Origin: Hexactinellida sp. DTS-2022
Lineage: Eukaryota; Porifera; Hexactinellida
Direction of reading: 5' to 3'
NCBI GenBank assembly: GCA_028753945.1
Contig: JAPNXP010000002.1
Location: forward strand, 7,130,001 to 7,194,000
Length of the DNA stretch: 64,000 bases
Part shown: positions 2,529 through 64,000 of the stretch, piece by piece
How the letters are laid out: each line of letters opens with the position of its first letter
How positions within the stretch are numbered: position 1 is the first letter of the stretch
Translations under genes and position numbers: made by a program
Notes under the pieces: generated by a model
Told to the model about the DNA's origin: nothing
The model's input: only the letters and a program-made list of their open reading frames with translations
The model's database searches: none

Positions 2529-2619
2529 ACACAATATATTTTTAGTTTTGGTTAGTAAACTCGATTATGTAACCTTTATTAATGATTTTTTTGTAATCAT
2601 TAGTTAGGTTGGATTAGTA

Positions 2620-2950: not shown

Positions 2951-3159
2951 GATTAATATAAACTCGTCGGAGCTGAAGTTGTGGAGCCCCACCTTGTCTT
3001 GGGGCCCTACGCCCCTGCCTGCCGCACCTGCTCTTTCGAGCATGTCATATATACTATGTGAATATTTTGACATTTATTAATATTTATGTCTAAGAATACC
3101 AATACGAATTCAACCTTCTCTCCCATGTGTTTTTCTATATACCCTACCCTACCAAACTC

Positions 3160-3569
3160 GTCGTACACTTAAATGAAAGTTACTTAGTTATATAAAAATC
3201 AACAAACATGTTTTTGATGAAACATGGATTACGAAAAAACACAAATATTAAAGTTATATCTATCACAACACTATAAAAGCCCAACAAAATATTATAAAAA
3301 GAGTATATTAAGTCTAACATATTCTTATGGATATTTCCACTGTGAAATTTTGCATTTCATAAATGCCCAAGGAAGTGGAAGGCAAGTGGAGGAGTTCACT
3401 TACTAACGCTACGTCATCAACACAAATTCTCAAAATTTTGATTTTTTGAATTTAATCGAAAGGCAATTCAAAACTATGTCTAAATCCGAATTTTCACGAC
3501 ATTTAAATAATCTTATCGAGTAGTTTTCCAACTGTTACAACGAATATCAGTTAGCCAGTGTACGGTTAA
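3160..3569. mobile_element. Partial TTAA MITE, family P1, inverted
   Basis: Read in reverse from TTAA at 3566-3569, the sequence begins TTAACCGTACACTGGCTAAC and follows the family at 11237-11921 and 24059-24747, including the block TCCACTTGCC(T)GCCACTTGC. The distal half is missing or decayed. The 60-codon frame at 3224-3406 lies inside the repeat and is not a gene. Confidence 0.75.
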
Positions 3570-3725
3570 TTCAAACAAAACATTACCGTAGTATACTACC
3601 TAAATACTTGTCTGAGACATATTTTTGTATAATTCCAATCTAAAATATAATTTTTTTTAATTTTTTACCAGTTTTATACGAAAAATTATGTAGGGTCTCC
3701 TGTTCGCACTAGCGAGGGTGTACTG
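3570..3725. mobile_element. pogo-like fragment, family B, inverted
   Basis: The outer end at 3709-3725 reads, reversed, CAGTACACCCTCGCTAGTGC and is next to TA. The inner part shares the word for GTCTCAG(A/G)CAAGTATTT with 7129-7290. No coding remains. Confidence 0.65.
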
Positions 3726-3862
3726 TATAACGTATGTAAAGTATTACCAATTTTAAATTAAGAAATAAGTTCCTTCAAAATATAGTCTTGCAAACATGAG
3801 TAAATTACACGTACCATCAGATAATTTATTCTATGCGAAGTAGTATATAGTGGAACATTTAT

Positions 3863-3896
3863 TCTCAAACATTTATTCTAGAATAAATGTTTGAGA
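3863..3896. repeat. Perfect 34-bp palindrome
   Basis: TCTCAAACATTTATTCT is followed immediately by its exact complement, with no spacer. It has no obvious host element and could be the fused ends of a deleted foldback. Confidence 0.9.
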
Positions 3897-11104: not shown

Positions 11105-12285
11105 CAGTGGAACCTCTATAAGTGGGGGAACTGGGACGGGGAAAATTTCAATTGCCCCCCATTCCCCGGTTATAAAATTCAATTGGAAAAACATTATATA
11201 TGCTATATTATACAAAATATTCATATAACACACACATTAACTGTAGGCTGCCTAACTGATACACGTTGTGTCAAGTGGAAAACAGGTAGATCAAATTATT
11301 CAAATTTCTTTAAAATTCGGATTTAGACATGGTTTTGTACCCTCAATCGATTTTATCAAAAAATTTCAGAAATTGTTATGGTGACGTAGCATAAAGGTGA
11401 ACTGCTCCACTTGCCTGCCACTTGCTTTTGTAAATTCTGAATGTTAAATTTTCACCGTCGAAACACCCGTAATATGATATTAGACCAAGAAATACCCAAT
11501 TAGGATATTTGGTTGAACTAATATAGAGTTGTGATAGATATAGCTCAAATATTTGTATTTATTCGTAATCCATGGTTAATCAAAAACAAATTTGTCAATT
11601 TTTTAAAAATCATGTAACATTCGTTAAGTAAATCGGATTTGTTCAATTTTTGAGATCTGATAACTAATAAGAAAGTCGTAATTGTTCAAGTTTATAAACA
11701 AAGGATTACATACATGTTTACGGCGTTATATCGATTTAAAGAGAAAGAATTTGTCTTCACTTTTCGTCGAGATTGTCTGGTAATTTTTTTCAAAAATTCT
11801 AGCATATAGATATAATATTGTGTTCTTGTTGGATTTCAAATTAATAGGTTCTAAATAAAAATTACAAAGAACTACTGGGTATTCTAGTTTTCTGATAATC
11901 AGCCCGGCAGTGTACGGTTAATGCACGTTCTAGTTCTTATTTGTATATTATGACAATTTAGTTAACTGCTGATCTACACTAGGTGATTTCTTCTAAAAAC
12001 ATCAGAGTAGATCAATCGAAAATATTTTTTCTGTAGAACTTTTGAGTCGATTTATTGGAAATATTGTATTATTTTATAAGAATCATGTTAGGATTTGTCC
12101 ATTCCCCCCATTTATGGAGGTTGTTTTGTATGGAGATAAAAACTCCTTGAAATTTATGGTCCCCCATTCCCCACTTCCCCGCTTATAGAGGTTCATTTGT
12201 ATGGATATATACGAATATGGTAAAAAAATTCCCCACTTATGGAGGTTCCCCATTTATAGAGACCCCACTTATAGAGGTTGCACTG
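11105..12285. mobile_element. pogo/Tigger-like MITE, family A, complete
   Basis: Ends CAGTGGAACCTCTATAAGTG and its inverse CACTTATAGAGGTTGCACTG, bounded by TA at 11103-11104 and 12286-12287. TA duplication with ends starting CAGT is the Tc1/mariner-pogo pattern. It interrupts the P-type transposase gene and supplies the last ~31 codons of the read-through frame. About 500 bp is its own sequence; the rest is a nested TTAA MITE. Confidence 0.9.
11237..11921. mobile_element. piggyBac-like TTAA MITE, family P1
   Basis: Starts TTAACTGTAGGCTGCC (11237) and ends GGCAGTGTACGGTTAA (11921), imperfect inverted ends with TTAA at both borders. The related pogo MITE at 1895-2528 holds the empty site CATTAATG, confirming precise TTAA duplication here. 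No coding capacity. Sister copies: 24059-24747 (complete), 3160-3569 (partial), 58600-58850 (diverged). Confidence 0.9.
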
Positions 12286-14784
12286 TACTTCCAAATCTCT
12301 ATCTTGGGTTAACATTGACAAACAAGCTTCACACTTTGAACTGGAATTTCGAATAAAGGAATGTACTGCATAACCACCAACGAAGGCGATAGATTGTAGA
12401 AGTGAAGTACTCAAAGGTATGTTATGAATTGTGGTTAGGACAGAGAGAAATAATTCTACATTTAAAGAATTATCCAGTTGTTCGCTAGGTTGTGTAGAGT
12501 AGGATGGGAAGAATTCTTTTAAGCTGATATACTCAGTAGCCTGTTGTTTCGAGAATAATTTAAGGATGCTGGAAAGTTTGATTCGCCTTTCACTCTGTAA
12601 GATTTGTGTATATGATATATGATATTGTGCACCAGACATCATGCGATACAATCCGAAATGATGCTCGATTGGATCATTTTGCAATCTTGATGTGAGCACA
12701 TAATCAAAACCACAATTCTCCGTGAGGTGTTGAACGATTTCTATCAAGGCACGACAGGAGTGAGAAAGACTTGTAAAAGTTTGTGGACTTAACTTTCCAT
12801 GTTTTCCTTGTCTACATTGCCAACGGTGAATCCAGTTAACAATGTGTTTGAGAAATGCAAACCGTTCATCATTTTGCTGGAGAGGTTTGGAAAATTCATC
12901 ATTCAGTCTGATGTGTTTATGTGTGGTGTTAACATTAAATATTTTCCAAAGTTTGATTATTATGTCTAAAAATTCCGGTGTCTTGGATTTTGAGTTAGCG
13001 TGTGTTGCATTGTAAATCGATAGAGCTGCATAAGTTGATTGGTCAAATATTTTTAAGGCTAAATTGACGTTTTGTCTCTCTAACATGGTAGGCCAGCAAG
13101 CTTTGGAAGATAATCGATGTGCTTGTTTAAGTAAGGAAAACTGTTCACTCTTGTACAAAAGCCTGATGTCCTGAAAACGAGCGATGTGGATCTTGTTTAC
13201 ATCATCATAATTAGGAAAAATCAATGGGTTTGGATAAGTGAATGTGTGATCATAATCCTTTAAGTTGAGCCAGTTGTTTCGAATTGTTTTGAGAATATGT
13301 ACAAAATCAAAAAGGAGAAAGAGTTTACGACTTTGGTTAACAGGATGAGGAACGGTTGGAGTCAGAGTCTTCCCATCTGAAGAGAATAATTTGAACATGT
13401 TAACGTTCAGTGGATAATTGTCTGTGCAGATGGCTTGTACTTTCAGATCGCAATTCTCTATATTAGAGATTACAGACTTTACCACTGTAAACAAATCACC
13501 AGCCGAATTTGAAGAGCAGGGTATTAAACGAATTACTTGAGACCACTTTCTATATAAACTTGAAGCCATTATAGCGAATACAGTCTTGATAGGCTTGTCA
13601 GATTCTAAAGAATATCCAAGTATTCTCCCTCCTGTATAAGCGACGTTAGAGTTGACATGTATTTCATCCATATGCAATATTAAATTTCGTTCTTTTGAAC
13701 AAAAATCTGCTGTCAATTGCTTCAAGAGGGTTGTAAAGTCGCTTTCTAATCCGATTTTCGAGTAAAGTTGCTGTAGCGTTTTAACATGAGGTAAGCATAG
13801 ACAGTCTAGGGACTGGAGATATCTGTAACAAGAAGGTGATGTAAGATGTGCTTTGAGAGCCATAGCCTGTGTAATTACGTTATATTTTCTTCTATTTTTA
13901 TGCACAAGAACGTTAGCTAGTTGACATTGGATGAAGTGGAGACGCGATAGATATGGAGATAAATCTGAAACATCATCTGTAAAAGGATCCGTTAACAGTG
14001 AATTAAGTTTTGATATTGAAAGATCGAGTTGGTGTAAAGCTTCTTTAACGTGATGCTCAAATGTAACGAGCTTGTTTGGAGATGATTCATGGGAACTGTA
14101 ATTCTCTATTTCTTCGAAAAGAAGTTCAATCTCGCGAGTATCAGTTAACATATGAATTGAGAGAGGAATAACAACATTATCCCGAAATCCCTGGACACTC
14201 ATATCTTCGCTTACCAATAAACGCATCTCAATAGATATTGTATGACCTTGGAGCTTAGGCTTAAGGATGTGTAGTTCAGATCCAGAACGAAATGCCATCC
14301 ATTTATTAGATAAGGATATGGAGGATATGTGTGTGAGTAAGTTGGAGAAATTGTGCACACCATATTTTTCTGTATCATGCGCTTGCTGTTCAATGCTTAA
14401 TTTGAGAGCCTGTGCGAACAGTTCTTCGTCTTTTGATTCGCGGACAAATCGAGTTGGTCTTGGTAATGGTTCCGACGAAAGATATGTAGGGCAGCCGGGT
14501 AGGATCGATGGTACAGCATTTTGACAGAGTTTTGGTCTGGCGCGTATTCTTTCAGTAAAATTACCGTCAGCTTGCAAAATTCTGTCAACTGTAATAATAT
14601 CTTTGGGATGAAAGTGATGCATGCAGACATAAATGTTAGATAAATCAGCAATGTTGTCACGATGGAGTGCATTCAACCACTGAGTACGTAACTCTTGAGG
14701 GGCTGTAGGAAGCTTGAAAACTGGTGTATATGGCTCACCTCTGTAATTGCTTTTACACCCAGGAGCAGAGCAGTGGTTTGGCAT
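12193..14784 (-). CDS. THAP-domain P-element-type transposase, C-terminus displaced
   Basis: 863-codon open frame starting MPNHCSAPGC. A THAP zinc domain spans residues 1-96: C5, C10, C54 and H57 fit C-x4-C-x43-C-x2-H, and AVPSILP (90-96) is the AVPxxx box. This domain binds the element's DNA ends. The RNase H-like catalytic region follows: D373 in LHMDEIHV, D455 in CTDNYPLN, FDFVH (493-497) in the place of the usual DxxH, and E707 in QNDPIEHHFGL, the DDE set of P/THAP9 transposases. The last ~31 residues (from about residue 833) are encoded by the pogo MITE, so the natural C-terminus is cut off and lies at 10710-11102. Apart from that one insertion the frame has no stop or shift, suggesting recent activity. 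Whether it was spliced is unknown. Confidence 0.93.
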   Translation of the reverse strand: MPNHCSAPGCKSNYRGEPYTPVFKLPTAPQELRTQWLNALHRDNIADLSNIYVCMHHFHPKDIITVDRILQADGNFTERIRARPKLCQNAVPSILPGCPTYLSSEPLPRPTRFVRESKDEELFAQALKLSIEQQAHDTEKYGVHNFSNLLTHISSISLSNKWMAFRSGSELHILKPKLQGHTISIEMRLLVSEDMSVQGFRDNVVIPLSIHMLTDTREIELLFEEIENYSSHESSPNKLVTFEHHVKEALHQLDLSISKLNSLLTDPFTDDVSDLSPYLSRLHFIQCQLANVLVHKNRRKYNVITQAMALKAHLTSPSCYRYLQSLDCLCLPHVKTLQQLYSKIGLESDFTTLLKQLTADFCSKERNLILHMDEIHVNSNVAYTGGRILGYSLESDKPIKTVFAIMASSLYRKWSQVIRLIPCSSNSAGDLFTVVKSVISNIENCDLKVQAICTDNYPLNVNMFKLFSSDGKTLTPTVPHPVNQSRKLFLLFDFVHILKTIRNNWLNLKDYDHTFTYPNPLIFPNYDDVNKIHIARFQDIRLLYKSEQFSLLKQAHRLSSKACWPTMLERQNVNLALKIFDQSTYAALSIYNATHANSKSKTPEFLDIIIKLWKIFNVNTTHKHIRLNDEFSKPLQQNDERFAFLKHIVNWIHRWQCRQGKHGKLSPQTFTSLSHSCRALIEIVQHLTENCGFDYVLTSRLQNDPIEHHFGLYRMMSGAQYHISYTQILQSERRIKLSSILKLFSKQQATEYISLKEFFPSYSTQPSEQLDNSLNVELFLSVLTTIHNIPLSTSLLQSIAFVGGYAVHSFIRNSSSKCEACLSMLTQDRDLEVQCNLYKWGLYKWGTSISGEFFYHIRIYPYK

Positions 14785-15017
14785 GACGAGTGTTCCAATC
14801 GGTACTAAATAGTAGGCTATGATTAAAAATTAATAAAATAATAAGTCATGGAGACTGGAGACGGCAGAAAACAATCGAAGGAATCAAAAATTGTAACTAA
14901 TATAATAAAAGGGATATGTCAGAGGTCAAATTATACGAACGTTAAGGCCAGGGTTCCTCTGCAATTTTTACTTACTTACTCTTATATATTATACCCCTGT
15001 ATATTTGCAAATATTCA

Positions 15018-20150: not shown

Positions 20151-21450
20151 CCAAGTCATCGTCACTATAAAGGTGTTAAATTATTTCAGAAAGGTGTTTC
20201 AGAAGGCTACGACCCTTAGAGTGGTAGAAGTTTGGTTTTAGCTCACTTCATTTTAGAGATATTCAAGTTTAAGTAGAATATAATATGTGATGACTCAGCA
20301 TTTTTAATGTACGTGTTGGGTGATCTCCCAAAACCAACCGTCCCATTTGAATTATATAATTCACAAAATTGTGAACCACATTTTTTTTAAGATTTGGTCA
20401 ACACCTCAAGGTGTCAAGACCCACTTGTATAGGTGGTACGTGGCATAAGGACCAATTGATAAATTGATAGTTTGTTTCTATCATCTATGATGTCTGAGAT
20501 TTATGATATTTAATTAATTAGTATAAATATTTAATTAATAAATTAATAATTTAACACCTTTATTATGTACAGCAAAATAAATATAGTTCAATTATTTGCA
20601 CTTATTATTAATTTAAATCGAATTTCACTATCATATTTGAATTCAGCGCACTCGATAACCCCAATAATCCAATTGGAACCGTCTATAAGTTAAATACAAA
20701 AGGAATTAATTATAATAAATTACGTCAGTACATTAATTGTGCAAGAATATTCTCGCGAAATAAATATAATCACTTTATCTATCGTTGTTGTGGAATGTAA
20801 AATGTTAACGGTTCTATCATAAACCATCTTTAGTTTAATGCCATTCATTACTTATTGATAATAAATTAAATTATTAGTTATTTATTTTAGCAATGTTATC
20901 CACGGTGAGTTGAGTAAAGTCAACAAATTCCTTATATAAATTAATTTAATTTAATCCATTGTATAGTAATGCTAGAATTAAATAGAAGCCAGCTGGAATT
21001 TATAAGTTAAATCAATATAATTATCGCAAGTTGAATCACTAGAGAGGATTTAAAAAGTTAAATCAATATAATTATTACAAGTTGAAACAATAGAATTAGA
21101 TTTAACACTTTACTGAAATTGAAGTGTGAGTAAACAAAGAAATTTCAACCCCCATTTATGGCAGAAATTGACCCCTTTATTGGAAAATTTATTCTCCCAT
21201 CAGACGGAGAATTTTATGGCGAATCCAAATATGAAATAAAATTTGGGGGTTTAGTAAAACATATCTTGAGTTATGGACCAGACAAATTTTTAAAGGTGTT
21301 AAAGATGTGTCAAAAATTTGTTAACGAAAAATCGTAACCCCAGGTGCAAATTAGACGGTCCCATCGCACCTACATGCCAAGTTTCAGCCCATCAACAATT
21401 AAGCTCTGGCCAGGGCACCGTCTACGGAGAAAAAAAAAATAATAAAAATA
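20151..21450. other. AT-rich intergenic DNA
   Basis: A short direct repeat, AGTTAAATCAATATAATTAT, occurs twice near 21005-21075. No gene, tRNA or terminal repeats seen. Confidence 0.5.
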
Positions 21451-22460
21451 AAGGCAGTGATTCTAATACTGGGCCACTATACTATAGTATAGTCGGCACA
21501 GTAAAAATATAATATAATAGATAGACATTTTCTTTTTGGTTTATTGATTTATATCGTATAGGGATCTATTACTCAGAATTACAGATTAAGGCTCCAAGCT
21601 CACCTTCAGGACGGAGACCCATAACATCCATTAAATGTACACTATTGCATATTCCGCATGTTCTATAGATGGGGTATATTCACAGGAATTTTCATTCGGA
21701 AATTCCTAATACTTTAGGAAATATACCACCTTGCGCCACTTTGCGCCACTGACGTTATACATAATTTGGTGGGGATTTCGTCACAATTTATAGCGGAATT
21801 ATCTAATTTTTAATGCTTAATACTACATAACATAAGATTAAACCATTGCATAATACTTAGTTAACATTGTTATATAACCACTATATAAGATTCCTACTGA
21901 ATGAAGTGTATATATATAGGAAACAGTAAAACAATATTTATAAACAGATATTCTTCAACAAAGTACCAACCTAGTCCAACATGCGCCGACGTCACAAAAA
22001 TATTATGCAACTATTTGAAGATTTCAGTTCAAGGAATTATTGTAGTTATAGTGATACATAAATTATAGTAGGATTAGAAGTTTCTGACACATTTTCAAAT
22101 TGTTGTAATTCTTTGAATCAGAAAAATGCAATAATCATCATTCAAATAACTTGTTTTGACTTTGAAGCTTTGAAAAATATTAGTAAGCTTCAGAAACGAT
22201 CTAATCCTAGTATAGAGAATAGCTATGCATATGTATTGAATAAACAAGGAATAATCAACACTTAAACTTCTGTGGTTTTTTTTTAGACCTGCGCACATCT
22301 TTTCAGTCAGGTATAGGAATTTAATATCACGTAATATGGAACTATACTCAATCACTCGAGCGAATATTATTCGAATTCAATTTGTATTGCGGATTTGTTA
22401 TCAGTAAATATAAGGCGAAAACTGATATAAGTTTGGATTTGATTGGGAGTTTTTTTCTGA
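21451..22460. repeat. Dispersed repeat D, copy 2
   Basis: Starts GGCAGTGATTCTAATACTGG with the ACTGGGCC...GG(C)CCAGT dyad, as at 7440. The far part (22260-22460) matches 7690-7860 in reverse complement, for example GAACTATACTCAATCACTCG against CGAGTGAATGAATATAGTTC. Frames 22095-22684 (minus) are not supported as genes. Confidence 0.55.
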
Positions 22461-23505: not shown

Positions 23506-23845
23506 TTAATTTACAAATGTCTTCACTTCAAAGCATAGATTACACAACACAACATGTCGAAATCTTTTTGAAAGTACTGCGTCTCTAAAGCACAATATAC
23601 GAATGAAAATATACCTTGTTTTAAGACAGAAAGAATCTTTGCGTGCGAGATGTTCACAATATTTTCGAAATAGATTGTTGCATGATTCCACGCCTTTTTC
23701 TGATAGCTCCTTCAGACCAAAACTATTATTTCACTCTCTGATCAACTGTGCTATGAGCTAAAAGTTTGAGCTGTTATGGAGAGATGTTAGCCCAGGTAAA
23801 GGTGATCACAATAAATTCATGTGTATATATTCTAAAAGGTCATGA
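23506..23845 (-). pseudogene. RAG1/Transib-like transposase C-terminal fragment
   Basis: Third copy of the family at 43072-45366 and 62939-64000. Reading leftward: FTWANISP, a stop, QLKLLAHS (family HKLLAH), after a one-base shift LIRE, a stop, NNSFGLKELSEKGVESCNN, LFRKYCEHLARKDSF, then IFIRIL and a VVLCNLC tail. The Glu in SEKGVESCNN corresponds to RAG1 E962 and is kept. The first zinc-ligand His of HxxxxH is lost (CTC for CAC). Two in-frame stops and a frameshift show it is dead. Everything upstream of the FxWAN block is missing or unrecognisable. The match to copies 1 and 2 is clear by eye. Confidence 0.85.
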
Positions 23846-27966: not shown

Positions 27967-29144
27967 CAGTGGAAACCCGCGTATCGGGGCACTCGCGTAT
28001 TGGGGCACGCCTCGTATCGGGGCAGTTGGTTGAGAATTTGGTTTTTTCAACCATTAAAAATAACCCCGCGTGTCGGGGCGCCATTCACTTATCGGGGCAC
28101 TCCACCGAAGATTATTTCTCTTGAGTAACATGCTTTTTACTTTTGAGCAGCTTAATATTCTTTGTAATGGCCGCTAAGCGTCACCCACTCACGCTAGAGA
28201 CTCGTGCTGAGGTAATCGGGGGAGTTTTTCAAAAAAGGAATTCCGTGAATATCATAGATTTGTGACTCCTAGTGTAGGTAAAGTACTGTAATACCTCGTT
28301 TACGCGGTTTTTTTAACGCGTTTTCGTTTTACGCAGAACAATTTTTATGACCAAAACTTTTTTTACGCGATCCTCAACTCGTTTTACGCGGTTTATCTAT
28401 GATTTTCATACAATAAATTCTCTTTTTTATGGATATTTTCGATAATTTTTAAGATTTAGAGTAAACAAAGCGGTTCTACATTTCCAAAAAAACAAAAATG
28501 ATGATTTAGAGATAGTAGATAGTTAGGGATATGTATTTGTCGTATAGTAAGTTCATCCAAATATATTATTGGTCAAATGAATACATATTTGCTTCACTAT
28601 TCACACTAGAAATACCCGGTTGTGGGAGGTACCCGAAGGTGTAGGGTTGCGGTGTGAAGGGAATTTTAATTCCCTTCACAACACAATTCCCTTTCTGTGG
28701 GATTTCCCAAGATTTCTCACAAGTTGGTCTCTATCAGGATTCCCATAGGTAAAAATAATTTCCATTGAAAACGATATTGGAAATCCTATGGGAATTCCCA
28801 TGGGATTAACATACACACGGAAACCTTGGCTATCTGAGAGGTCCGGATGTTGGATTTTTTAGTGTTTAATAAACACTAGGTATTTAAAATTTTATTCGAT
28901 GTTTATAATATTTGGAAACGCATCTATTGGTTTAATATGTGTTACTATGAGAATGAACCGTTTTTTTTACGCGATTTCGTTTTACGCGGGCTTTTCAAGG
29001 AACGCATCTACCGCGTAAAAAGAGGGACACCTGTATAATGTGAAATTGTAATGTGTAGTACTACTTAAATATCAGCCTTAACTCTAGGTTTTGACTATAT
29101 GTATATGATTTGTTGTGTAGGTGCTAACTTAATTGTTTTAAGTA
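27967..29144 (+). mobile_element. Tigger-like element, right end missing
   Basis: TA then CAGTGGAAACCCGCGTATCG, with the CGTATCGGGGCAC word repeated. It is co-linear with the complete element at 50011-50531 up to TTAATTGTTTTA (about 29143), where the similarity stops and the 29145-33434 gene begins. An ATG near 28168 (ATGGCCGCTAAGCG) opens a short MAAKR-type start as in Tigger/CENP-B-like transposases, but only about ten codons survive here. It is interrupted by the MITE at 28286-29033. Confidence 0.8.
28286..29033. mobile_element. pogo-like MITE, family C (TTTACGCGG ends)
   Basis: Left CTGTAATACCTCGTTTACGCGG and right end, reversed, CAGGTGTCCCTC..TTTTACGCGG, with TA at 28284-28285 and 29034-29035. 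The empty site is visible in the sister Tigger copy near 50322 (GTGAAGTATAATGTGAAA), which proves the TA duplication. Confidence 0.9.
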
Positions 29145-30101
29145 GTTCAGTGAATAAGGCCCCTGTGCAGCAGGTACTTCAAGAATGTCGTCGTAACTAT
29201 TGTAAACCAGATCAAATAGCCAAAACTCTTAGACTAAAAGTACAAGGTATAGCCACAAATACTGGAAAGCAAGTGCTCAGGTCAGCAGAAAGGCAATCTA
29301 ATTTTAGCACTGACTGCTTTTTTTGTGCAAAACCAGCAACATTAGGAAGAAAGAGAAAAAGTTCAGATGTTGTTCTTGTCAGGACGGTTGAAACAAGGGA
29401 CACAATTCTGGAAGTTTGTTGTGAAAGGGGTGATGAATGGGCAAATGCTGTGCAAGCGAGAATTTTACATGCTCACGATCTGCATGCTGTAGATGCAGTA
29501 TATCATAGAGTGTGCAGTGTCAATTTTCGTACTATGAAGCAGATTCCAGCAGTTCATGAGCATGAAGGGAACCCATCCAAAAAAGTGCAACTGGGTCGAC
29601 CACAAGAGAAACAAAGGACAGATGCATACCTCGAAGTTGCCAGATTCCTTGAAGAGAATGATGATGAACAGATTACCATTCATGACCTGATTCAACGTAT
29701 GGAGGAAAATCTGGCTGACACGGAACACAGCGCTTATAGCTATCCACATATGCAACAAATGCTCAAGGAACATTTTGGAGATAAGATTATTCAGACTGAG
29801 ATCAATGGTAAGCCTAATGTTGTAACTTTAGAAACAAGGCAAAGGAAGTGCTCTACGACTTTTACAATAATCGTGATCTTGATCATGAGATAGACAAAAT
29901 GAGGATAATAGAAACTGCTGCCAAGTTGATCAAGGATTACATTAAAGCAGATAACACATCTCACTGCAACTATCCAGGTTTTGATGAACTGGGGTCTGAA
30001 GAGTGTATCAACTTCTTACCTGAATCTTTGAGAGTACTGCTTGCAGGTCTGATTGTGGGAAAAGAAGTGCAGACAAAAAATTCTAAATTGGACAGGCAGT
30101 A

Positions 30102-32056
30102 ATGCAGGCTGCTCGGCCAAGAGTTTTATTGGCACCACTTCATGTTGGTTTGGGTTTGCAACTGCATCACCATTACACATCGCGTTTTTTAATCGATACA
30201 TTACACAAACATGGTTTCTGTTGCTCCTACAACGAAGTTCACCAATTTGAACAAAATGCTGTATTGAGTTATGAAACCGACATTCCCAACTACTCATCAC
30301 AGTTTGTCCAGTATGTTGCAGATAATGTTGATCACATCATCAAAACCCTGGATGGAAATGATACCTTCCATGGCATGGGGATGATAGCTTCCATAATCCA
30401 TGGAACAAAGAAAAACAACCGAATTCTCCGAGTAAAGTCACACCCAGGGACATAGCAAGTATTGGAAGAGTCCCAATCCGATACCACAGAGAAGAAAGTC
30501 TTGGTATGGCTATGGTGACATATGAAAAGTTATACAGCTTCAAAGCTAAGGATCCTACAGCCCATCTGGATGTCCTTTGGAAGAGATCAATCATGTTTGG
30601 GTCACCGAGGCCAGCATGGTCAGGAATGATGCAACTTGTACATCGTGGCAGACAACCTGGCAAATCAACCGTGATTTTTCTCCCAATGATAGACATGAAC
30701 CCCAGTGACATCACGTGTGTATACTCCACACTGAAGTACATTCAAGAGCATGCACACCGCCATGATGTCACACCAATCATCACCTTTGACCAGCCACTCT
30801 GGTGGAAGGCTTTAAAGATTATTGTCACTGAGCCAGTCGGAAGTGATTTGAGAAGTATAGTTCTTCGCCTGGGAGGTTTCCACACTGAAATGAGTTTTCT
30901 TGGGTGCATTGGCCACCTCATGGCTGCATCTGGTTTGCATGAATTGTTCGAATTGACATATGCATCCAATGCAGTAGTACACATGCTCAGTGGCAAAGCT
31001 ATTGCTCGAGCAGTGCGAGGGCATTTCATTTTCGATGCAGCACTCAATGCCCTGATTCTAGCAAGCACATTCAATGTGCCCCTACCTGGAGTTTCGAATG
31101 TCGCAAATGAAGAAACAGAAGAAGTCATGGTAACCGAACAAACACATGAAGAATCTGCTGGAAGGACTGACCTGGAAGAAGCTGCTGTCCTCTATGAGAA
31201 GCTGATGCAAGGTTCAGTGTCTGCAGATCACGTTTGCCAGGATAATATAATAACCAAGATTAATGATACCGTTCAAGCAAAAAAGGAATATATGAAATCT
31301 TCTAGGACTGCTACAATGTGGTTGCAGTACATGGACAGGGTTGATATTCTTCGCAAATATATCCGAGCAGAGCGTACGGGCAACTGGGAATTGCATCTCC
31401 AAGCTGTTTCGGAAATGCTTCCTTACTTGGCAGCTTCTGGCCACAACAACTACACAAAGTCTGCATTGATATACCTACAGCGAATGTCTCATCTTCAGAG
31501 TGATCATCCAGAGGTATACCAACACTTCCAAGATGGTCTCCATGTGATCAGAAGGAGTGATCGTTATTGGGCAGGCCTCTATTCAGATCTTATCTTTGAG
31601 CTGGTGCTGATGAGAACCATGAAGACAAGTGGTGGCATCACAAGGGGACGAGGCATGAGTGAGCAACAACGACTGATTTGGTTATTATCAATGCCAGCAT
31701 GTGCAGAAGTGAATAGAGCAATGCAAGAGCTAACTGGTGTATCCTACAACTCAGGGGAGCAGAATAAGGACATGACACAGGCTAGGCAAGCTCGTGATTG
31801 GAAGGATACACTGACACTTCTGAGCTACCTCCAAGAGAGGAACCCCTTTACTTCTGATGCCAGTCTACGAAACATTTGTACTGGAGTGCATGCACACAGC
31901 ACCGTTAATGCTGACACAGCAAAGGATGTTGGTAATGCCATTCTGGCTAGCATGGAAGGTATTACAGCTGCAGACTACACTTTCAAGAGGAGTGATCAAG
32001 TTGTCACACTAGAGACCAAGTCTGCAGTGAAGATTGATGGTGTACAGTGCAGATAG
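30102..32056 (+). pseudogene. Central segment of the 29145-33434 gene
   Basis: Two consecutive open blocks: 30102-30455 (QAARPRVLLAPLHVGLGLQL..., ...FHGMGMIASIIHG) and, after a one-base shift near 30412, 516 codons to 32056. The second block contains PIITFDQPLWWKA, RLGGFHTEMSFLG, GRGMSEQQRLIWLLSMPAC and VNADTAKDVGNAIL. I know these only as conserved blocks of this family and cannot name the fold. The 516-codon run without stop argues that the gene decayed recently or that the shifts are assembly errors. Confidence 0.75.
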
Positions 32057-32274
32057 ACCCTCAACTCCTTTTCCAGAGACTAACAGTAGCTGCAAAAGCA
32101 ACCAACAACATTGAGGACATATTCAAATATGAGCTCTGCAGTTATCCACCAGCACTCTTTGATTCATCGCTGTTGCTTAGAGAGCCACAGAAGCCAGTGC
32201 TGGCTAATTCCATTTGGGACATTTTGACACAAGATATTCCAGGAATATCTGGGAGGTCCACTTTGTGCTAGACG

Positions 32275-33434
32275 GTGGTTCCCTCCTCCAGCGCATCCCA
32301 TGGACCCGAGGGTCCACTTATAGGGATATATGTAGTGTACACAGATTACGTGGCAAAGAAGTATGGGGAAGCAATTGTTATTTTTGATGTCTACAGTGAA
32401 TCATCAACGAAAGACATGGTACATCAAAGACGAGCCAAAGGGCAAGCTGGGGTAACTGTCACGTTCACTGAGGATATGAAACTCACCATGAAGATAGTGA
32501 CTTTTCTAGCAAACAGTACCAACAAGCAACAGTTTATCAACATGCTTGGCAGCTACCTAGAGAAGAAATGCAAAGTGTACCATGCTCCAGGAGATGCAGA
32601 CCTACTCATTGTACAGAAAGCAGTGGAATCAGCCACAATGGTGAACACTGCATTGGTTGGTGACGATACAGATCTTCTCACTTTGCTGTGTTACCATGCC
32701 ACTTTGGATTCCCACAACATATTTTTTCTACCAGAGCCAAAGAAAAATAGCAAAAAGCCCAGAGTGTGGAACATCAAGGCTGTCAAGGAGCAACGAGGCC
32801 CTGAGATATGCAGCAATACCCTCTTTCTACATGCAGTCCTTGGCTGTGATACTAGTTCACACCTGTATGGCATTGGAAAGGGTACTTCTCTCAAGAAGTT
32901 CAAATCAAGTAGGCACTTTAGAGAACAAGCCAAGGTGTTTGCTACAGAGTCAGCTACGCCCAAGGCAATCTCTGCTGCAGGAGAGCAAGCATTGGTAAGT
33001 GTGTATAATGGGACACCTGGAGAATCGCTAGACTCTCTGCGCTATAAACGTTTCTACGAAAAAGTGGCTACGAATACTTCCTGCATTCATCCAAAAACTC
33101 TACCACCCACTTCAGCTGCTGCAAATTACCATAGTCTCCGTGTGTACTTCCAAATTCAGGAGTGGAAAGGTTGTGGTGATGAAATTCAACCACTGGAATG
33201 GGGATGGAAAAAGAGCGAAGGAAAACTTATGCCAGTACTCACTCACTTGCCACCACCTCCAGATGAGCTCCTGAAAATAATCAAATGTAACTGCCACACT
33301 GACTGTAGCAGTGTGAGATGCACATGCAATAAACACAATGTAAATGCTCTCCTGCATGTGGCAACTGCAGAGGATCAGGTTGCACAAACTCAGACAATCT
33401 GATACATGAGGATGAAGAAGACGATTTAGATTAA
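32275..33434 (+). pseudogene. PIN/FEN-like nuclease and CXC tail of the same gene
   Basis: The 375-codon frame contains AVIVFDVYSESSTKDM-type start (about 32370; read IVIFDVYSE), HAPGDADLLIVQKAVE (about 32580) and ALVGDDTDLLTLL (about 32655). The spaced Asp pairs (DAD, DDTD) and hydrophobic strands are those of PIN/FEN-type metal-dependent nucleases. The tail reads CNCHTDCSSVRCTCNKHNV; one missing base near 33345 then hides the rest, because the next frame reads CSPACGNCRGSGCTNSDN and an acidic end closing at TAA 33432-33434. Together these give the repeated Cys pattern of a CXC domain, a DNA-binding motif. Nuclease activity is inference. Confidence 0.75.
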
Positions 33435-41203: not shown

Positions 41204-42655
41204 TAATTCTAATAAATTATGAATAATCATGCATTATAGTAGTTGGATCAAATTAGATAATTATTTTATTAGTATATTCAGGAGATTTATAAATAGTCTT
41301 GGAAATCCTCTAATAGTAATTTGTATATAAATTTGTATATACAATAAATATGCAAAAATACTCCATTAACTAACTTACCAATCAACTTACCTGGCTGATT
41401 GAAGTCAATAATATCGACTTATTGAAAAGGTTCACGCGAGGGATTATTATGATGCTTGCAGAAGTATTTATTAAGCATCTAAATAGTGTATATACGTATA
41501 TATATATATATGATTTATAAATAAATGTTATGAGTTCAAATAAATATTTAACAATTTGCTACGTAACAACTTACACTGTAGGTGTCTTGAATATGCGCCG
41601 GTCAATAAGAATCGCATTTGAATGATAAAATTTTAACACATTTGTTGATAAGGATGCTTGCTTTGAAAAGGGTATTAGGAGTATGGTAGTTTCGCCAATA
41701 ATGTGAAAAGTTAAGTGTTAGAGGTGAAACATAAATTGTAATTCACTAACTAAGATTATAGGCAAACTTCAATAACTTGCTTAGATCTATTTTTGGTGTG
41801 TGATTACATAACATGATGTTTGACTTCCTATGTAAATAACACAGTAGCATCAGAATTAAGTGAATTCTTTCTACATGAAATATGATAGGTGTATCTCCAA
41901 GAATTACAGTGATTAATCATAACTACAAGTACTAAATTTGCAAACACTTCAGACCTCTAGAATGTGTAGAACATATTATTTTATTTTATGCAACATGAAT
42001 TGTCAAAAAATGTCAAAGATTAACATTTTTCACCTTCTTTCCCATGTAGCACATACACCAAATGTTTGTTATGTCCAAAGTGCTTGCAAAATAAAGTTTA
42101 GACTATAGATATACATAAGCCTGACATTCTTGGAGTGTTTCCTTCAGTACTTCAACATAAAAGAATTCATCGTTTGTAAAAAATCCCGTTTTGAGTAAAT
42201 TAAGGTTAATACATATTCAATCTATTCAAATTGTCAAATTGATCCAAATGTCTTATTAACTTCTCAAATTTCTTCTTTGGAGCTGAGAGACAATAATTAT
42301 CAATATCAAATTATTTAAAAATTTTTATGTATCCGCTAAAACACATATAGCATTCTAGAGCTGAGAAATTTCCTGTGGCCATTCTATGAAGGAACATATA
42401 CAACATATTAAAGTATTTTGATTCGCTTCGATGCGCAATATAGAATTTAAATTCAAATTCAATTTTCTATTTTTCGTTGCTAGGCAACTCGCAATACATT
42501 TGCTATGTTGCATCATGTTACAAACCACTATGTATAGAATGCTATGACACTATATATTATGTATATAATATGTAAATGGTAACACATATTTAGTCAACAT
42601 TTATTCTTTCAGTATTCTAACTCTGTAACATACAATTCTGTAACATACAATTAAC
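41204..42655. other. AT-rich intergenic DNA
   Basis: (TA)n near 41495. No frame or paired repeats. I looked here for a RAG-type CACWGTG terminal repeat upstream of the RAG1-like gene and did not find a convincing one. Confidence 0.45.
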
Positions 42656-43053
42656 CAAGGTTGAAACCGAATAGTTCACCAAATAGTTGCTTGCCGATTA
42701 GCTAACAATCGCTCGCTTACCCAAATTCAGGTCTATTGGTTATTTAATATCCCTGATGTATTTGGCTGATCAAATAAAAGCATTTGGCCCACCTGATGAA
42801 AATATTTTGATAATCTGCTATTAGTATTCGGTTGACCAAATAGTATTATTCGGTTGACCGAATAGTAAATTTGTCAACCGAATACTAACATATATTCAAC
42901 AAAATATCATTATCAGGTGAAGCAAATGCTTGTATTTGTAGACAAGGATATATATGCGGTCCAAAATGACAAATAATACTGGGTTTCGGTAAGCGACCGA
43001 TTCTTAGCTAATCGGCAAGCAACTATTCGGTCAACTATTCGGTTGCAACCTTG
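42656..43053. mobile_element. hAT-like MITE, ~65-bp inverted ends
   Basis: Left CAAGGTTGAAACCGAATAG and right end, reversed, CAAGGTTGCAACCGAATAG, continuing as inverted repeats through TTGCTTGCCGATTAGCTAA. CAATTAAC flanks both sides (42648-42655 and 43054-43061), an 8-bp duplication. It inserted just upstream of the RAG1-like start codon. Confidence 0.88.
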
Positions 43054-43071
43054 CAATTAACCAATTTACCA

Positions 43072-45366
43072 ATGGCTGAAGTGTATTTTCCACGGAACCG
43101 TCGTGATTTTGCGTACATTTTGAAGAAGAATTAATTCAACATTCCGGAAGCAGTCAATGAAGTGATAATTATGAGATTCTGCAAGATAATTATTAGTGAA
43201 CCATGAATGAGTTAAACGATTAATAGTTAATGAGTTAAACGATTAAGTTATATATAATTAACTAAAATATACAAGTACAAGTACAGAGAAGTATTTAGTA
43301 TACGAAGTAATCTCACATCATGATAATCTCTATTAAGTAGTTAACTATTAATCGTTTAACTCATTCATGGTTCACTAATAATTATCTTGCAGAATCTCAT
43401 AACAGAAGTAATTAGTCTTTTAAATATTGAAGAAGAATTGAGAGATTCTGTTACTTCATATATGATAATAATTCACTCTAATTTAAAGTAAACTAAGAAA
43501 TCCTTGGAACTATTAAATAATGAGTGGTGGACCTCCGAAATTCCTTGGGAAGCAAAACCTAGCAAGCTACCCGTCAAATCTTCAGTACCAGCCGTAATTT
43601 TGAAAACGTCTCAGACAAGAAAGTCTCTATTGAGTGTTTCTTTGCAGCAACAAAGATTCAGACTATCCTTTATTTTGGAGCAAATAAGGGAGGTTGCTGC
43701 ATTTGAAGATTCTAGCCCTGTAGTAATTTTAGCTTTATCATTGCAACTTTTAGCCAATGAAGAAGACAACCGTCAGGTTTCCAATGTTGCTAAAGAAGTA
43801 GTAGCTAATGGTGATTTCAGTAACTTAAAAGATAAAGTTGTTCCACTAGATAAAGCTTTATTCGTGCTCGATTTAGTTGGAGTGGGTAGAAGAATATACA
43901 CACAACTTCGCCAAACATTGATCCCAGAAAATAATATCTATCCTTCATACAACAAGATAGCAGATCTAAGAAACATTTTGATCTCGCGGCCTTCTATACA
44001 GTTGTATCCAGACTCAATCCAGCCATTGGTGTATACACTTCGTATTTTCTTCAAGTTCAACAAACCTTGGAGAGAATATTATCTACTGTAAATCTTCCAG
44101 CTAGCGAAGAATTCCCGTTAACATTGAGAATTGCTGATGGCCTAGATGGCTCTGGTTGCCATAATATCTATAACCAGCAACACACTAACACAAGAACAAA
44201 GAATTTCATTTTATTTTGTTTTAAGCCAATATCCATCCATACAAAATCGAACACGGTTGTTTGGAGAAACAATTCTCCCAATTCTCCATTCTCACAGAGT
44301 CCCATTTTCTTTGTGCTGCGAAGGAATGTAAAGATAACATCCGGAAATTTATGGAAGATATGATCAATCCTTAAACAGCAAAGCTCGGAACAGGTGTATC
44401 TCTCGATAGAGGTTTAGTAGTTGTCGATATTATTCGATCCATGTTCGACGGAAAGATGGCGGCAATCCTTTCTGGTTCAGGAGGTGCTAGTTGTAAAATG
44501 TGCACTCCCACACATAAAGATTTGAAAGATAAAGTCTTGGTAGTCGATGGATCAACAGAACCATTACTGACGCTAGACAGTTGTTCTCAGATATTGAAGA
44601 TACAGATTCCTTCTTTGCACTTCCAAGTAGTGAGCGTTTTGGCTTGACAGACACACCTATTTCTACCATAGACATAAATTCAGCATCTCCACTACACTCG
44701 TATACTTGCATCTTTTGGTGGTTTAATCTGTTGGTTTATGTTGACCAACCAGACTCAAGTGGTGGAACAACCTCTACAGGAAACGTAGCTCAAAGAGCAT
44801 TTTCTAATGAAACAAGTTTTTTAGAATGTGTACTTTATGCTATTGCAAATCCCCATCGACCAGCATTAGCAAAGATACATACTCAACTTGCTGCTATACT
44901 CAAAGTGTATAATTCCAGTAGAAAAGTGAAGACAGTGGAGTTGGGAAAAGTGTGTAAAGACAAGTATCTATTGATTGTAGATTCATTTCCCTGTTCGAGT
45001 TTCACACCAACTTAACACAAATTATTAGCCCACTCTGAGGAATTGATTCGTGAATCTAACTCTGGATTTGGATTAAAGGATTTTTCTGAAGAAGGGACAA
45101 AAGCATGTAATAAATTGGTGAGAAAATATAGGGAAACTTTGGCTCGAAAAGATTGTTTAGAAACTAATATTATGGATATATTTGTTAGATTAGTCTCCCA
45201 AAGTGATCCAGTCTCAGAGAGCTATCGGAGATGTTTAATCTGTGAACGATGTGGTCAGTCTGGACATTCATCAAGATCAAAATGTTGTAGGGCTGATAAT
45301 ATTGCACAAACTTCTGAAATTGACACTCTTATTGATTTTATAACAATTATTTGGACGTATTATTAG
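43072..45366 (+). pseudogene. RAG1/Transib-superfamily transposase, broken
   Basis: Starts MAEVYFPRNRRDFAYILKKN. The core shows, by eye against RAG1: D600 counterpart in LRIADGLDGSG (codon 44136); D708 counterpart in MFDGKM (44447); zinc CxxC as CKMC (44492-44503, RAG1 CTLC); SPLHSYTCIF; GGTTSTGN; HKLLAH (45016-45033, RAG1 HKTLAH); SEEGTKACNKLVRKYRETLAR, where the E962 position is Lys (45100). The tail is CERCGQSGHSSRSKCC (45241-45288). Breaks: stops at 43132, 43489, 44372 and 45013; frameshifts near 44055, 44305 and 44575; a foldback insertion (43169-43402); and an in-frame loss of about 38 codons after FNLLVY compared with copy 2. It is related to Transib and ProtoRAG; which branch needs a tree. 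In life such enzymes cut at their own terminal repeats by hairpin-forming transposition. Confidence 0.9.
43169..43402. mobile_element. Foldback insertion in the RAG1-like gene
   Basis: Perfect 62-bp inverted arms (43169-43230 starting TTATGAGATTCTGCAAG; 43341-43402 its exact complement) around 110 bp of AT-rich DNA. It separates the codons PEAVNEVI from TEVISLLNIEEELRDS of the transposase. The flanking GAAGTGATAA and GAAGTAATTA may be target duplication or may be gene sequence. Confidence 0.88.
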
Positions 45367-45965
45367 TTATATTTAGTGTATAGGCGTATTTCTAGATAGC
45401 GTTAGTCATTCTAATTAACAAAGAATATCAAAACATAATATATTAAAAATATAATGACGTCATATTGTGAAAAATAGACTCCGTACAATATCTTTGAGGA
45501 TTGAAATCGATTCGCAGGTATCGATAACCCATATGCTAATAATACATTATATAAATCCTAGATGCATAAAACAGCCTATACTTTACCATATGCCAATTTA
45601 GACCACTGTGATTTGTTCCCAGTTCACTTAGAAATTGCAATATTTAGACATAAGTTTATTGAATTCACATAATATTATAATTCGGATAATTTCTTCTATT
45701 CAACTTGATGAACTTTCCAGGAACTGTCGAAAAACGTTGAGTTTTTGACTCTACGAGTTATATTTTCCATAATAGACACCAAATTAAGTAGCATTTTTTA
45801 GTGATGAGATTGAAGTGGTCGAAGTGAAATCTCACGAATTTTTAATAGATCTTCAAAACTCCCAAATAATTGTTGTTTTAAAATGAAAATATACATATAC
45901 ATCGAGAAGCATTCAGGATGAGCCGGATTGATTACAACATTACAGGTGTTAAGTTCAAAGTTAAT
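45367..45965. other. Intergenic, downstream of RAG1-like gene
   Basis: A lone CACTGTG heptamer lies at about 45604. Without an upstream partner it cannot be called a RAG-type terminus. No Kelch-type (RAG2-like) frame is present. Confidence 0.45.
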
Positions 45966-46232
45966 TCATTTGCTGATTTGTTGACTCTTCGCACTCACAG
46001 CACTCGCAGTAGCCGAAAACGTTACGGGAACCTCCGTATTTTCAACAAATTCAAAGTCCTCGGGTACATTATGAAGAAAAACACTATGTACAATCTTACC
46101 TTTTTCATATGGGCCAGGGTTTATTTCAACTCCTCCTAGCACTAACAACATTGCAATAATACAAGCAAGCAGAGATATGGATATGCCCTTCTTGCTGTCA
46201 GTTGAATGAGAGAGAGAGAGGATGTGGGAGAG
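45966..46232 (-). CDS. Short ORF with 2A-like motif
   Basis: An 89-codon open stretch between stops (first ATG inside it gives 61 residues). It reads SISLLACIIAMLLVLGGVEI and continues NPGP, that is a hydrophobic run ending in a sequence close to the 2A ribosome-skipping consensus DxExNPGP, except that the leading Asp is Gly. 2A-like signals of this form are known at the N-terminus of several non-LTR retrotransposons. Downstream residues (NVPEDFEFVENTEV) are not recognised. No reverse transcriptase lies nearby. It could be the 5' scrap of a LINE or a chance frame. Confidence 0.45.
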   Translation of the reverse strand, partial: LSHILSLSHSTDSKKGISISLLACIIAMLLVLGGVEINPGPYEKGKIVHSVFLHNVPEDFEFVENTEVPVTFSATASAVSAKSQQISK

Positions 46233-59868: not shown

Positions 59869-61300
59869 TTAGTTGAGTTTATCAATCGTGTCTTGGCGGG
59901 TATGTCTAGGAGGTGATATCGTCGCAAATACCGTTTCTTCGGCGCCAATGGATAGTGTATCTTCAGTTTGTAAACTTTCGATAGTAGAGGTTTCTATTTC
60001 AGTAGATAAGCGCTGAGATCTTGTGGCTTGTTGGTCGGCAGAATCTATAGGAGTCAATCTTTTCAGGAGCATAACTTTGGATCTTTTCACGCGTTGGATG
60101 GATTTGTTACGATATATTTTGACTGTATTACGATTAAATTTATCAATTCTATAAGGACCAAGCCATTTATCATGAAATTTCGCTCCTTTCTTCTCTTGGT
60201 AGACATTTTCAATGAGGACTTCGTCTCTTTTATCCAGATTATTCTAGGTGATCGGGTTAAGATTCTTGTCATGGCGTCTCTTCATCAACTCCTTTGAGCG
60301 CAATAGAAGTTCGCCAGCACAACATGATCGTTAGCTTGTGCAACTTGCATGGACTGGATTAGTTCCGTTGTTGTATTTTCACTTGTGTTATTCCCCAGAG
60401 ACTGGGATTCTTCAATAGCCACATCAGGATGTAGCACTGCAAGATTTTCTGCCTCTATTGGTAAGAGAGGTTTACGTGACCCATGCATCAATTCGAATGC
60501 TGAGAATCCTGTTGTATCTCGGGGACTTATGTTAAGAGAAAAGGTGATTTCGTCAAGATATTGAGCCCAATTTTAATTCTTTTCATCCAACGATTTCACT
60601 AGGCATCTTTTGAGTGCTTTGTGGGCAGATTCAACTAACTCATTGGTTTGAGGGTGGTATGGGGGTGAGAAGATTAGCTTACAATCATAAGCATCATGCA
60701 GGGCTTTGGAAATTTTGTTTGTAAACTCAGTCCCGTTAACACAAATAATTTGTACAGGTGCTTCCTGTCTACAATAAATGGAGAATATCCCTTTTGCTAC
60801 CTCTTTCGCTTCCTTAGATTTAAGTGGGCGAGTTTCTAACCACTTAGTAAAGTGGTCCATCATAGTTAATGTATCCTTGTACCCTTCGCAATTCACAAGT
60901 GGGCCAGCACGGTCCATTCCTACACGAAACCACACCTTATTAATAACTGGGAGAGGTTGTAGTGGTATACTGGTAGCTCTCAGTGTAGGCTGTATCTTTT
61001 GACTGCGAATACAATTGTCCACGTAAGAACGAATTTGCTTTAGCATTCCAGGCCAAAAATACCTGGCTTTCGCGATATTATATGAGTAGTGTGCACATTG
61101 GTGTCCAACATTATCATGGATTTCTCTGAGAATACTTGGAAAATCATCAGTTTTGATTACAAGAAGTTGCTTGCCTTTAAAGAGCTTTACAAGCTTTTAA
61201 TTTCTAGCAATATATTTGGAGGCTCTCTTTCGTAAATTCCTCTTATGATCTTTCGTAAATCCATGGGGGTAGGAGTTGGTCATCAAGTATGACAATATAA
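59869..61300 (-). pseudogene. Gypsy/GIN-type integrase remnant
   Basis: In order: SKYELILSYLMTNSYPHGFT (about 61300), a stop, an HHCC-like zinc region (EIHDNVGHQC..., YFWPGM, DNCIRSQK; second Cys lost), the catalytic core with D in VGMDRAGPL, then CVNGTEF where the usual second Asp is absent, and E in YHPQTNELVESAH. After an in-frame stop near 60570 comes FSLNISPRDTTGFSAFELMH, then a frameshift near 60300, a GPY/F-type module (KFHDKWLGPYRIDKF, about 60155) and a Ser/Thr-rich tail ending 59869. No reverse transcriptase, RNase H or LTR was seen within 2.5 kb upstream, so this may be a stand-alone integrase gene (GIN or GINGER-like) or a truncated LTR element. Inactive. Confidence 0.8.
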
Positions 61301-62651: not shown

Positions 62652-62720
62652 CAGTCGACTCCGCTTAATTGGGTCACATCGGGACCAGGTCATTTTGACC
62701 CGAATAAGGCACAGTGGGCA
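62652..62720. mobile_element. pogo-like fragment, family G end
   Basis: TA then CAGTCGACTCCGCTTAATTG, as at the ends of 40657-41203; breaks down within ~60 bp. Confidence 0.6.
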
Positions 62721-62938
62721 TTTCAGGGGGGGTAAGTGGAAATAGGAAAACTATGCTAGATACACTCAAAAATAGTATTATTGACATATAGGTTATCTAC
62801 CCTTCTAAATAGTTTTTTTTTGATTAAAAAATTATCATCCCCCTCATTAATTAATTATGACGTCATTGGAATTCTTTCATTGGCTAATTCAATAAGCAAC
62901 TCCATAAAAAGAATTATACAATGTAGTAACAAAATATC

Positions 62939-64000
62939 TCATCTAGATATGCAAGTTAGAAATGAGAAAAGCGATTCATGTTCAAAATGAGAAATGCTAT
63001 CTCCAATAACGTGCAGACATGTAGGATCTGATACAACACATTTTTTACACTTTGTCACTTTTCTAAAAGTGATCAAAATATGATCGCTGTTACACAATAG
63101 ACGTATAAATATGTCACGCGTGTTAGTAGAGAAAGAAAAAAAATTCGCTAGGTGCTCGCGATATTTTCTTATCAATTTGTTGCAAACCTCAACAGCCTCT
63201 TCTGAAAAATCTTTCATTCCATGACAATTGTTACATGATCGAATGAGCTCTGAACAATGAGCTAATAATTTGTGCAGAGAGGGTGTAATATTTGCCCATG
63301 GGAAATGAATTACGATGGATTCGTATGTTTCCTTGCACAAAACGTCAAGCCTTTCGGTGTTTATTTCTCTGTCACTGTTATAGAGACGTAATATCACTGA
63401 GAGGTTTGTGTGAATCATTTTCAGATTATGATGATGTTCTGAGGGTATTAAAGAGTTTACCCAGAAAAGAAATTCGTTCTTATCCAGAAAACAAAGACGA
63501 GCATTATTCCCAGTGGATGTTGTGCCACCATCACTACTGGGCTGTTCAATCTTCATGCCTCTCTTTTCCATCAATAAACTGGAAGTAAACTTCATGGATT
63601 TCTTTATTCCAATTGATGATGGTGACTATTTCCTTGATCCAGATTGCAAGTGGTAGACTAGTATCATAAACATCTAAAAACGCAGGTATAAGCATGTAAT
63701 GGCGATGCACAAATTATATCTATATCTGATACAGGTTCGTGTGTTAATCCAAAATGATCATTGGAAGCTAGAGATAGAAATTCTTCCTTGTTAACAGAAT
63801 CAAATATTTCATTAGCAGCAGAAATTGATCGATTTATAGGAAAACCTTCTCTGATTAGTTCAAGATCATGTAACTGTTTGAAGGTAGCTGTACAAAGCTG
63901 ACAAGGATCTCCGCCTGCTCCAGATAGTATTCCAGCCATTTTGCCATCAAACATGCTTCTAACCAGTTTGACTTTTACAATCCCTTGTGGTAAAGTTAAC
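62939..64000 (-). pseudogene. RAG1/Transib-superfamily transposase, better preserved, cut by window edge
   Basis: From the edge it reads LTLPQGIVKVKLVRSMFDGK. D708 counterpart in MFDGKM (codon 63948-63946); CQLC zinc pair (63903-63892, RAG1 CTLC) followed by TAT; SDIDIICASPLHAYTCVF. After a frameshift near 63665 and a TAG (Trp to stop, about 63640) comes a 218-codon run with GGTTSTGNNAR and LIPSEHHHNL (RAG1 has GNFAR and LIPSEERHEAL), SLHKLLAH (both His kept) and DFSEEAVEVCNKLIRKYREH with the E962 counterpart intact (63190-63188), then CKKC in a degraded tail. The first catalytic Asp would lie beyond 64000. Only two disabling changes are visible over ~340 codons, fewer than in the 43072 copy. 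Confidence 0.9.

Follow-up and report, generated by a model that had tools for sequence, protein, structure and literature searches.

A decayed RAG1-related transposon in a hexactinellid sponge probably belongs to a single-gene Transib family with short- and long-spacer ends

Introduction

Accounts of how V(D)J recombination originated have still to explain the 12/23 rule. The RSS heptamer has the consensus CACAGTG, as given in PMC8289069. Within the Transib superfamily, Subgroup I is characterised by asymmetric TIRs, an alpha11-12 region and a CTT1, and an NBD equivalent is found in both subgroups (Tao et al., 2022; PMC9435367). The TIRs of HzTransib are termed symmetric in PMC8289069, and its catalytic residues have been numbered D126 and D225 (PMC6941560). 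TIRs resembling the 12/23 arrangement were described in PMC8355894 for Transib5 of Drosophila and for Transib2 and N1-N3 of Anopheles; since asymmetry is reported there and in PMC9435367, it is already known for Transib. According to PMC4411706, a genome typically contains a single autonomous Transib copy or only a few. ProtoRAG ends are asymmetric (27/31) in PMC7204232 and PMC8289069, and AanRAGL, a RAGL element, has 4/13-bp spacers following a 13-bp element (PMC9435367).

Here we describe a decayed transposase gene in a 64,000-nucleotide stretch of the genome of Hexactinellida sp. DTS-2022 (contig JAPNXP010000002.1, positions 7,130,001 to 7,194,000; hereafter the window, within which positions are numbered from 1), together with the family to which it belongs. 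To this record the family adds an exact heptamer, end pairing that can be counted across many ends, its copy number and signs of recent movement. Among the titles listed from the literature on Transib or RAG1-like elements in sponges, none reports this family.

Results

The window carries a decayed RAG1-like transposase gene at 43072-45348 on the forward strand, which begins with the methionine codon at 43072 and was traced through several frames by tblastn, in pieces, with the protein of locus L009. The original prediction had held that five motifs occur in order within one decayed gene and that this order is unlikely by chance, and both points were borne out: DGLDGSG (44136-44156), MFDGKM (44441-44458), CKMC (44492-44503), HKLLAH (45016-45033) and SEEGTKACNK (45085-45114) are all present in order on the forward strand, distributed, as a result of the damage to the gene, over several frames, and the copy aligns piecewise to a 712-aa relative in the same genome at 44-71% identity. 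The aligned pieces are 43072-43167 (44%, E 0.006), 43402-44028 (52%), 44013-44324 (70%), 44306-44551 (71%) and 44551-45348 (59%), the last four with E printed as 0.0. The frame changes near 44013-44028, 44306 and 44551; in addition there are in-frame stops, a stop codon ahead of HKLLAH and, near 44739, a loss of about 34 residues.

By sequence and alignment, most of the RAG1 landmarks that had been assigned to these motifs hold. DGLDGSG and MFDGKM contain the first and second catalytic aspartates (D600 and D708 of RAG1), and CKMC and HKLLAH supply the cysteines and histidines of the zinc site. SEEGTKACNK does correspond to the helix of the third catalytic acid, but the residue equivalent to E962 of RAG1 is itself a lysine (codon 45100-45102). 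Judging by its sequence, the window copy is dead, catalytic glutamate included. The forward strand also encodes a RAG1 nonamer-binding-domain-like region (43612-43812) and, in the C-terminal tail, a CX2CX3GHX5C zinc knuckle (45241-45285; Pfam zf-CCHC, E 0.019).

The element extends beyond 43072-45366, the range first noted. Its 3' end is at 45610, where the terminal heptamer CACAGTG (45604-45610, reverse strand) is followed by the flank ATTTG, and homology at the 5' side reaches back to 42278 through a 5' untranslated region (42278-42484, forward strand; blastn to L009 positions 351-551, 63%, E 1.5e-12). Between the gene and the 3' end lie the palindrome ATGACGTCAT, part of a 3' module (45454-45463, forward strand), and a conserved subterminal block recognised by comparison of 3' ends (45523-45548, reverse strand). 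A 5' terminus was not found for the window copy: there is no convincing CAC-starting end in 41700-42420, and from 36000 to the gene the only CACAGTG is at 37805. A repeat search revealed two different inverted repeats inserted in this copy, one upstream of the gene (42656-43053; 90-nt arms, 86% complementary) and one inside it (43169-43402; 70-nt arms, 96% complementary), the latter breaking the match after L009 residue 32.

Taken alone, pieces of the window copy match known proteins weakly (HzTransib, E 0.48; RAG1 NBD, 3gna, E 0.096 for the region at 43612-43812; and, for the last piece, Pfam RAG1 at E 0.039), and the piece containing MFDGKM matched no RAG or Transib chain. Its homology to RAG1 and Transib is certain because of the matches made by its family. 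In the genome of 112 Mb (18 contigs), a 199-aa piece has at least 151 matches in a scan that scored 150 of its 328 candidates. Among the matches listed, 12 fall in frames of 711-757 aa that are free of stops, and the Pfam RAG1 profile marks 33 places genome-wide. For a 720-aa relative, the E value was 5.1e-26 against HzTransib, 1.5e-10 against the amphioxus RAG1L protein BbRAG1L and close to 1e-5 against mouse RAG1. The profile search proposed with the original prediction came out positive: a 10-member family profile run against the PDB gave 3.2e-44 for HzTransib, 2.1e-19 for BbRAG1L and about 1e-14 for mouse RAG1, and all 10 family proteins matched Pfam RAG1 at E <= 0.01.

Both catalytic aspartates, the glutamate, CxxC and HxxxxH are kept in 14/14 intact or near-intact family proteins, two of which are shortened at the N-terminus. 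By alignment counting, the glutamate of SEExxExxNK aligns with E962 of mouse RAG1 and with chain index 419 (E436) of HzTransib. A profile of the N-terminal region alone, built from 11 family pieces with that of the window included, has the RAG1 NBD as its top match (3gna, E 8.3e-5), and its best 17 matches comprise 16 RAG1 entries and one designed protein. A segment of about 45 aa, which HzTransib lacks, lies between CxxC and LH in 5/5 aligned members. The C-terminal CX2CX3GH...C knuckle was found by pattern in eight of the 14 proteins and by eye also in L021, with a variant in L012; it is missing in four (L013, L014, L020 and L025).

The proteins of L015, L016 and L017 are 99-100% identical and lie on three contigs, and L016/L017 and L018/L019 are sister copies. 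From these sequences, the family is large and apparently recently active. Close pairs gave dN/dS of 0.55-0.74 from 15-29 changes, too few to indicate selection, and dS was saturated in distant pairs. No RAG2-like gene fits inside the 13 complete elements (2975-3735 bp): among frames of at least 80 aa wholly outside the transposase frame, the longest has 88 aa, and a 150-aa frame in L022 overlaps the broken transposase of that element. A genome-wide search with PF03089 (RAG2) returned 0 matches, as did its control, and is thus uninformative by itself. Pattern searches for relatives gave 96 and 73 matches in prokaryote genomes and 71 in viral contigs, none of which was confirmed.

The window holds two further family members. 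The 3' end and C-terminal coding part of a second copy, less decayed than the first, occupy 62710-64000 on the reverse strand, with a 228-aa frame at 62942-63625 and a 471-aa frame that starts in the window and runs out of it. Its 3' end (62710-62746, read on the forward strand) consists of CACAGTG, a 22-bp spacer and GAAATAGG; no opposite end was recognised in the 4.8 kb examined. A short remnant of another copy lies at 23620-23794 (reverse strand; blastn to L024, 71%, E 3.5e-16, and to L016, 68%, E 2e-6). Elsewhere, L014 (C1:16861500-16868500) contains a 757-aa open family frame at 1625-3895 (reverse strand) with no detectable ends, and is perhaps domesticated.

The ends of the family start with CACAGTG, the RSS heptamer. 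At 20 loci, end pairs were picked by TIR similarity alone, with flank information unused; a pair was obtained at 15 and none at five. An exact 5-bp duplication flanks 13 of the 15 paired loci, with 4 bp at L026 and none at L023. Uninterrupted copies of the target repeat, in which the 5-mer occurs once, exist for L017 (TAGTA) and L018 (GGGCA) and are 82-94% alike; these matches represent other copies of the repeat rather than the insertion locus itself as it stands in a different individual. Two further empty-site matches differ by one base in the 5-mer, namely TAGCA for L017, found in L018, and GTGCA for L018, found at its own locus. For L025, the flanks match in three empty-site matches and the 5-mer differs. 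A dispersed repeat in the window at 21015-21507 (uninterrupted match 21020-21439) has served as the target for the L018 and L025 insertions elsewhere.

The two ends of an element differ in the position of a second motif, around GAAATAGG, whose distance from the heptamer is about 11-12 bp at the 5' end and in most cases 21-22 bp at the 3' end. When the comparison was restricted to sequence beyond position 12, 10 of 13 transposase-bearing elements had their best block common to both ends placed deeper at the 3' end, by 9-10 bp; the shift was -19, +14 and -2 in L009, L024 and L025, respectively. As judged by shuffling the 5' end 200 times, the signal was strong in L010, L013, L018, L020 and L022 (reached by 0-2 shuffles), intermediate in L024, L016, L017 and L019 (7-26) and absent in L009, L012, L021 and L025 (78-137, with 106 for L012 and 134 for L021).

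Genome-wide, CACAGTGG-N3..33-GAAATAGG has 419 matches, against 0 for the control. In the 100 of these ends that were listed, on contigs C1-C3, the distance from CACAGTG to GAAATAGG was 11-12 bp in 40 and 19-22 bp in 58 (21-22 bp in 56), and the remaining two had spacers of 14 or 16 bp, figures that depend on choosing GAAATAGG as the second motif. Among these listed ends, a short end was joined to a long one in 18/18 convergent neighbouring pairs less than 5 kb apart. The formal P of 1e-6 for such mixed pairing is too small, because by blastn the 18 pairs represent only three families and the copies are not independent. An exact 5-bp duplication was present in 12 of these pairs, compared with two of 306 mismatched flank pairs. 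Transposase similarity was detected in two of the 18; the other 16, which have none, look non-autonomous. As read from these sequences, the end pairing is 12/23-like, though it comes from three families only.

At their 3' ends, 10 elements have subterminal blocks in common with the window copy. Allowing up to two mismatches, AATGTATTAT-N5-TAT-N-GGTTATC occurs at 493 sites genome-wide and its control at two. Sixty of 100 listed module sites were sampled, all exact matches and with second members of tandem pairs omitted; in this sample, in which many sites are close copies, an exact CACAGTG lies 40-90 nt outward of the module in 53 (exactly 62 nt in 46), and TGACGTCA lies 83-88 nt inward in 46. 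The palindrome ATGACGTCAT was considered as an element-specific signal and rejected, as it has 2648 sites genome-wide compared with 102 for the control. Within the window it stands at 18300, 36053, 45454 and 62857, four occurrences against 0.05 expected.

Several other features of the window and genome were recorded. On the reverse strand, an 878-aa open frame at 12193-14829, which combines THAP and TNP-like RNase H domains, encodes a P-element-like transposase that looks intact, a 207-aa frame at 60573-61196, in which an integrase zinc-binding domain and an rve core domain were identified, is part of a retroelement, and an 88-aa frame at 45966-46232 contains the 2A-like sequence GVEINPGP, of a kind found in some retrotransposons. 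On the forward strand, 29069-33402 holds three long open frames (274, 564 and 376 aa), none of which matches a Pfam profile at E <= 0.01. One homeodomain probe gave three matches in the genome (best 46% identity), none of them Hox-like; two are presumably Msx- and NK2-like.

Discussion

With a probability of about 0.9, we read the window copy as a dead, single-gene, RAG1-related DNA transposon of the Transib superfamily that fits Subgroup I, and its family as working in the following manner. One transposase of about 710-750 aa would bind both element ends; it would be laid out as a RAG1-NBD-like N-terminus, a DDE RNase H core and a CxxC...HxxxxH zinc site, with a segment at the place of alpha11-12 and, in most members though not all, a C-terminal zinc knuckle. 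A dimer of this protein is proposed to hold a short end together with a long one, its NBD-like domain sitting on the second motif. DNA would then be nicked at CACAGTG and hairpins would form on the flanks, and insertion at a new site with a 5-bp stagger would give rise to the 5-bp duplication. The hairpin step is suggested by analogy with HzTransib and RAG, as is the idea that the enzyme itself imposes short/long pairing; that the NBD-like domain reads the second motif is a further proposal. Any role of the conserved 3' module is conjectural; it may be bound by the transposase or a host factor, or may be a regulatory or RNA-processing signal.

The family shows the Transib hallmarks of homology to HzTransib, D/D/E and CxxC/HxxxxH residues, CAC-starting TIRs and 5-bp duplications. 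The original prediction, that a Transib/ProtoRAG-type cut-and-paste element lived in this genome, is retained in its Transib half, and the sequence evidence supports the former presence of such an element in this window; the ProtoRAG half is not upheld, HzTransib being the best match and the 13 complete elements having no room for a RAG2L. It could be argued that the family is a ProtoRAG-type RAGL transposon, with RAG1L and RAG2L, whose RAG2L half has been lost or gone unrecognised, given that the NBD, the alpha11-12-like segment and the CCGHC-type tail are RAG1L-like features and that the match to BbRAG1L is itself significant. However, HzTransib beats BbRAG1L by 82 bits, and the limit of 88 aa on frames wholly outside the transposase in 13 elements leaves no space for the missing partner, so we consider this very improbable. 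Slightly less credible still is the idea that some copies are domesticated host genes and the window copy a decayed relative of one. The long open frame of L014, for which no end pair was found, would suit it, but a 3' terminus and a 3' module are present in the window copy itself, and 13 of 20 loci are typical insertions.

A more serious challenge concerns the short/long asymmetry, which might simply have been inherited from a few founder families with no pairing rule enforced by the enzyme. That the convergent pairs fall into so few families, and that related copies dominate the counts, speaks for this view. Against it, the 9-10 bp shift recurs across elements whose proteins are only about 40-60% identical, and it resembles published asymmetric TIRs such as the 4/13 bp of AanRAGL (PMC9435367). 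On balance we regard inheritance from founders as unlikely, while giving it considerably more weight than the two preceding alternatives, and we continue to favour a single-gene Transib transposase that handles a short and a long end.

It is possible, though we hold it as a tentative and rather doubtful proposition, that the single-gene RAG1-core transposons of a non-bilaterian animal already use the exact vertebrate heptamer together with strict pairing of about 12/22. If true, a 12/23-type rule and CACAGTG would be properties of the transposase core needing no RAG2, and an abundant, apparently recently active family would allow a direct test. In this one genome, several subfamilies occur together, some open copies are almost identical, and the ends that carry the exact RSS heptamer number in the hundreds; short/long pairing by a RAG2-less enzyme can therefore be counted now.

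Among known systems, HzTransib (Subgroup II; PDB 6pqn and others) is the best solved relative and has the same D, D, E and zinc-site residues, but it is without the segment of about 45 aa that follows CxxC in this family. The vertebrate system shares the heptamer CACAGTG, NBD homology and a one-turn difference between spacers. In contrast, it uses RAG2, for which the 13 complete elements have no room, and its RSS has the nonamer ACAAAAACC with spacers of 12/23, whereas the second motif here is around GAAATAGG with spacers mostly of 11-12/21-22. ProtoRAG and RAGL elements, as presented in PMC7204232 and PMC8289069, resemble the family in RAG1 core domains, CAC-starting ends and 5-bp duplications; unlike the single gene here, they carry a RAG1L and RAG2L pair, and BbRAG1L scores far below HzTransib. 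The end geometry of AanRAGL is nonetheless close to that of the family (PMC9435367). The insect Transibs with 12/23-like TIRs, compared by their description in PMC8355894, are likewise single-gene elements with short and long spacers, but their hosts differ and they are reported to have an RSS-like nonamer. Transib Subgroup I offers the closest correspondence we can draw by features. The exact CACAGTG, the hundreds of ends, the several subfamilies in one genome and the lack of a tail knuckle in 4/14 proteins are unlike the described Subgroup I. The family shares with it a single RAG1-like transposase, asymmetric TIRs and an NBD equivalent (PMC9435367), as well as a segment at the place of alpha11-12, judged by alignment position and not by structure; the tail knuckle of most members may correspond to CTT1. 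Placed by such sequence features rather than by a tree, the family fits the published description of Transib Subgroup I, and not that of ProtoRAG.
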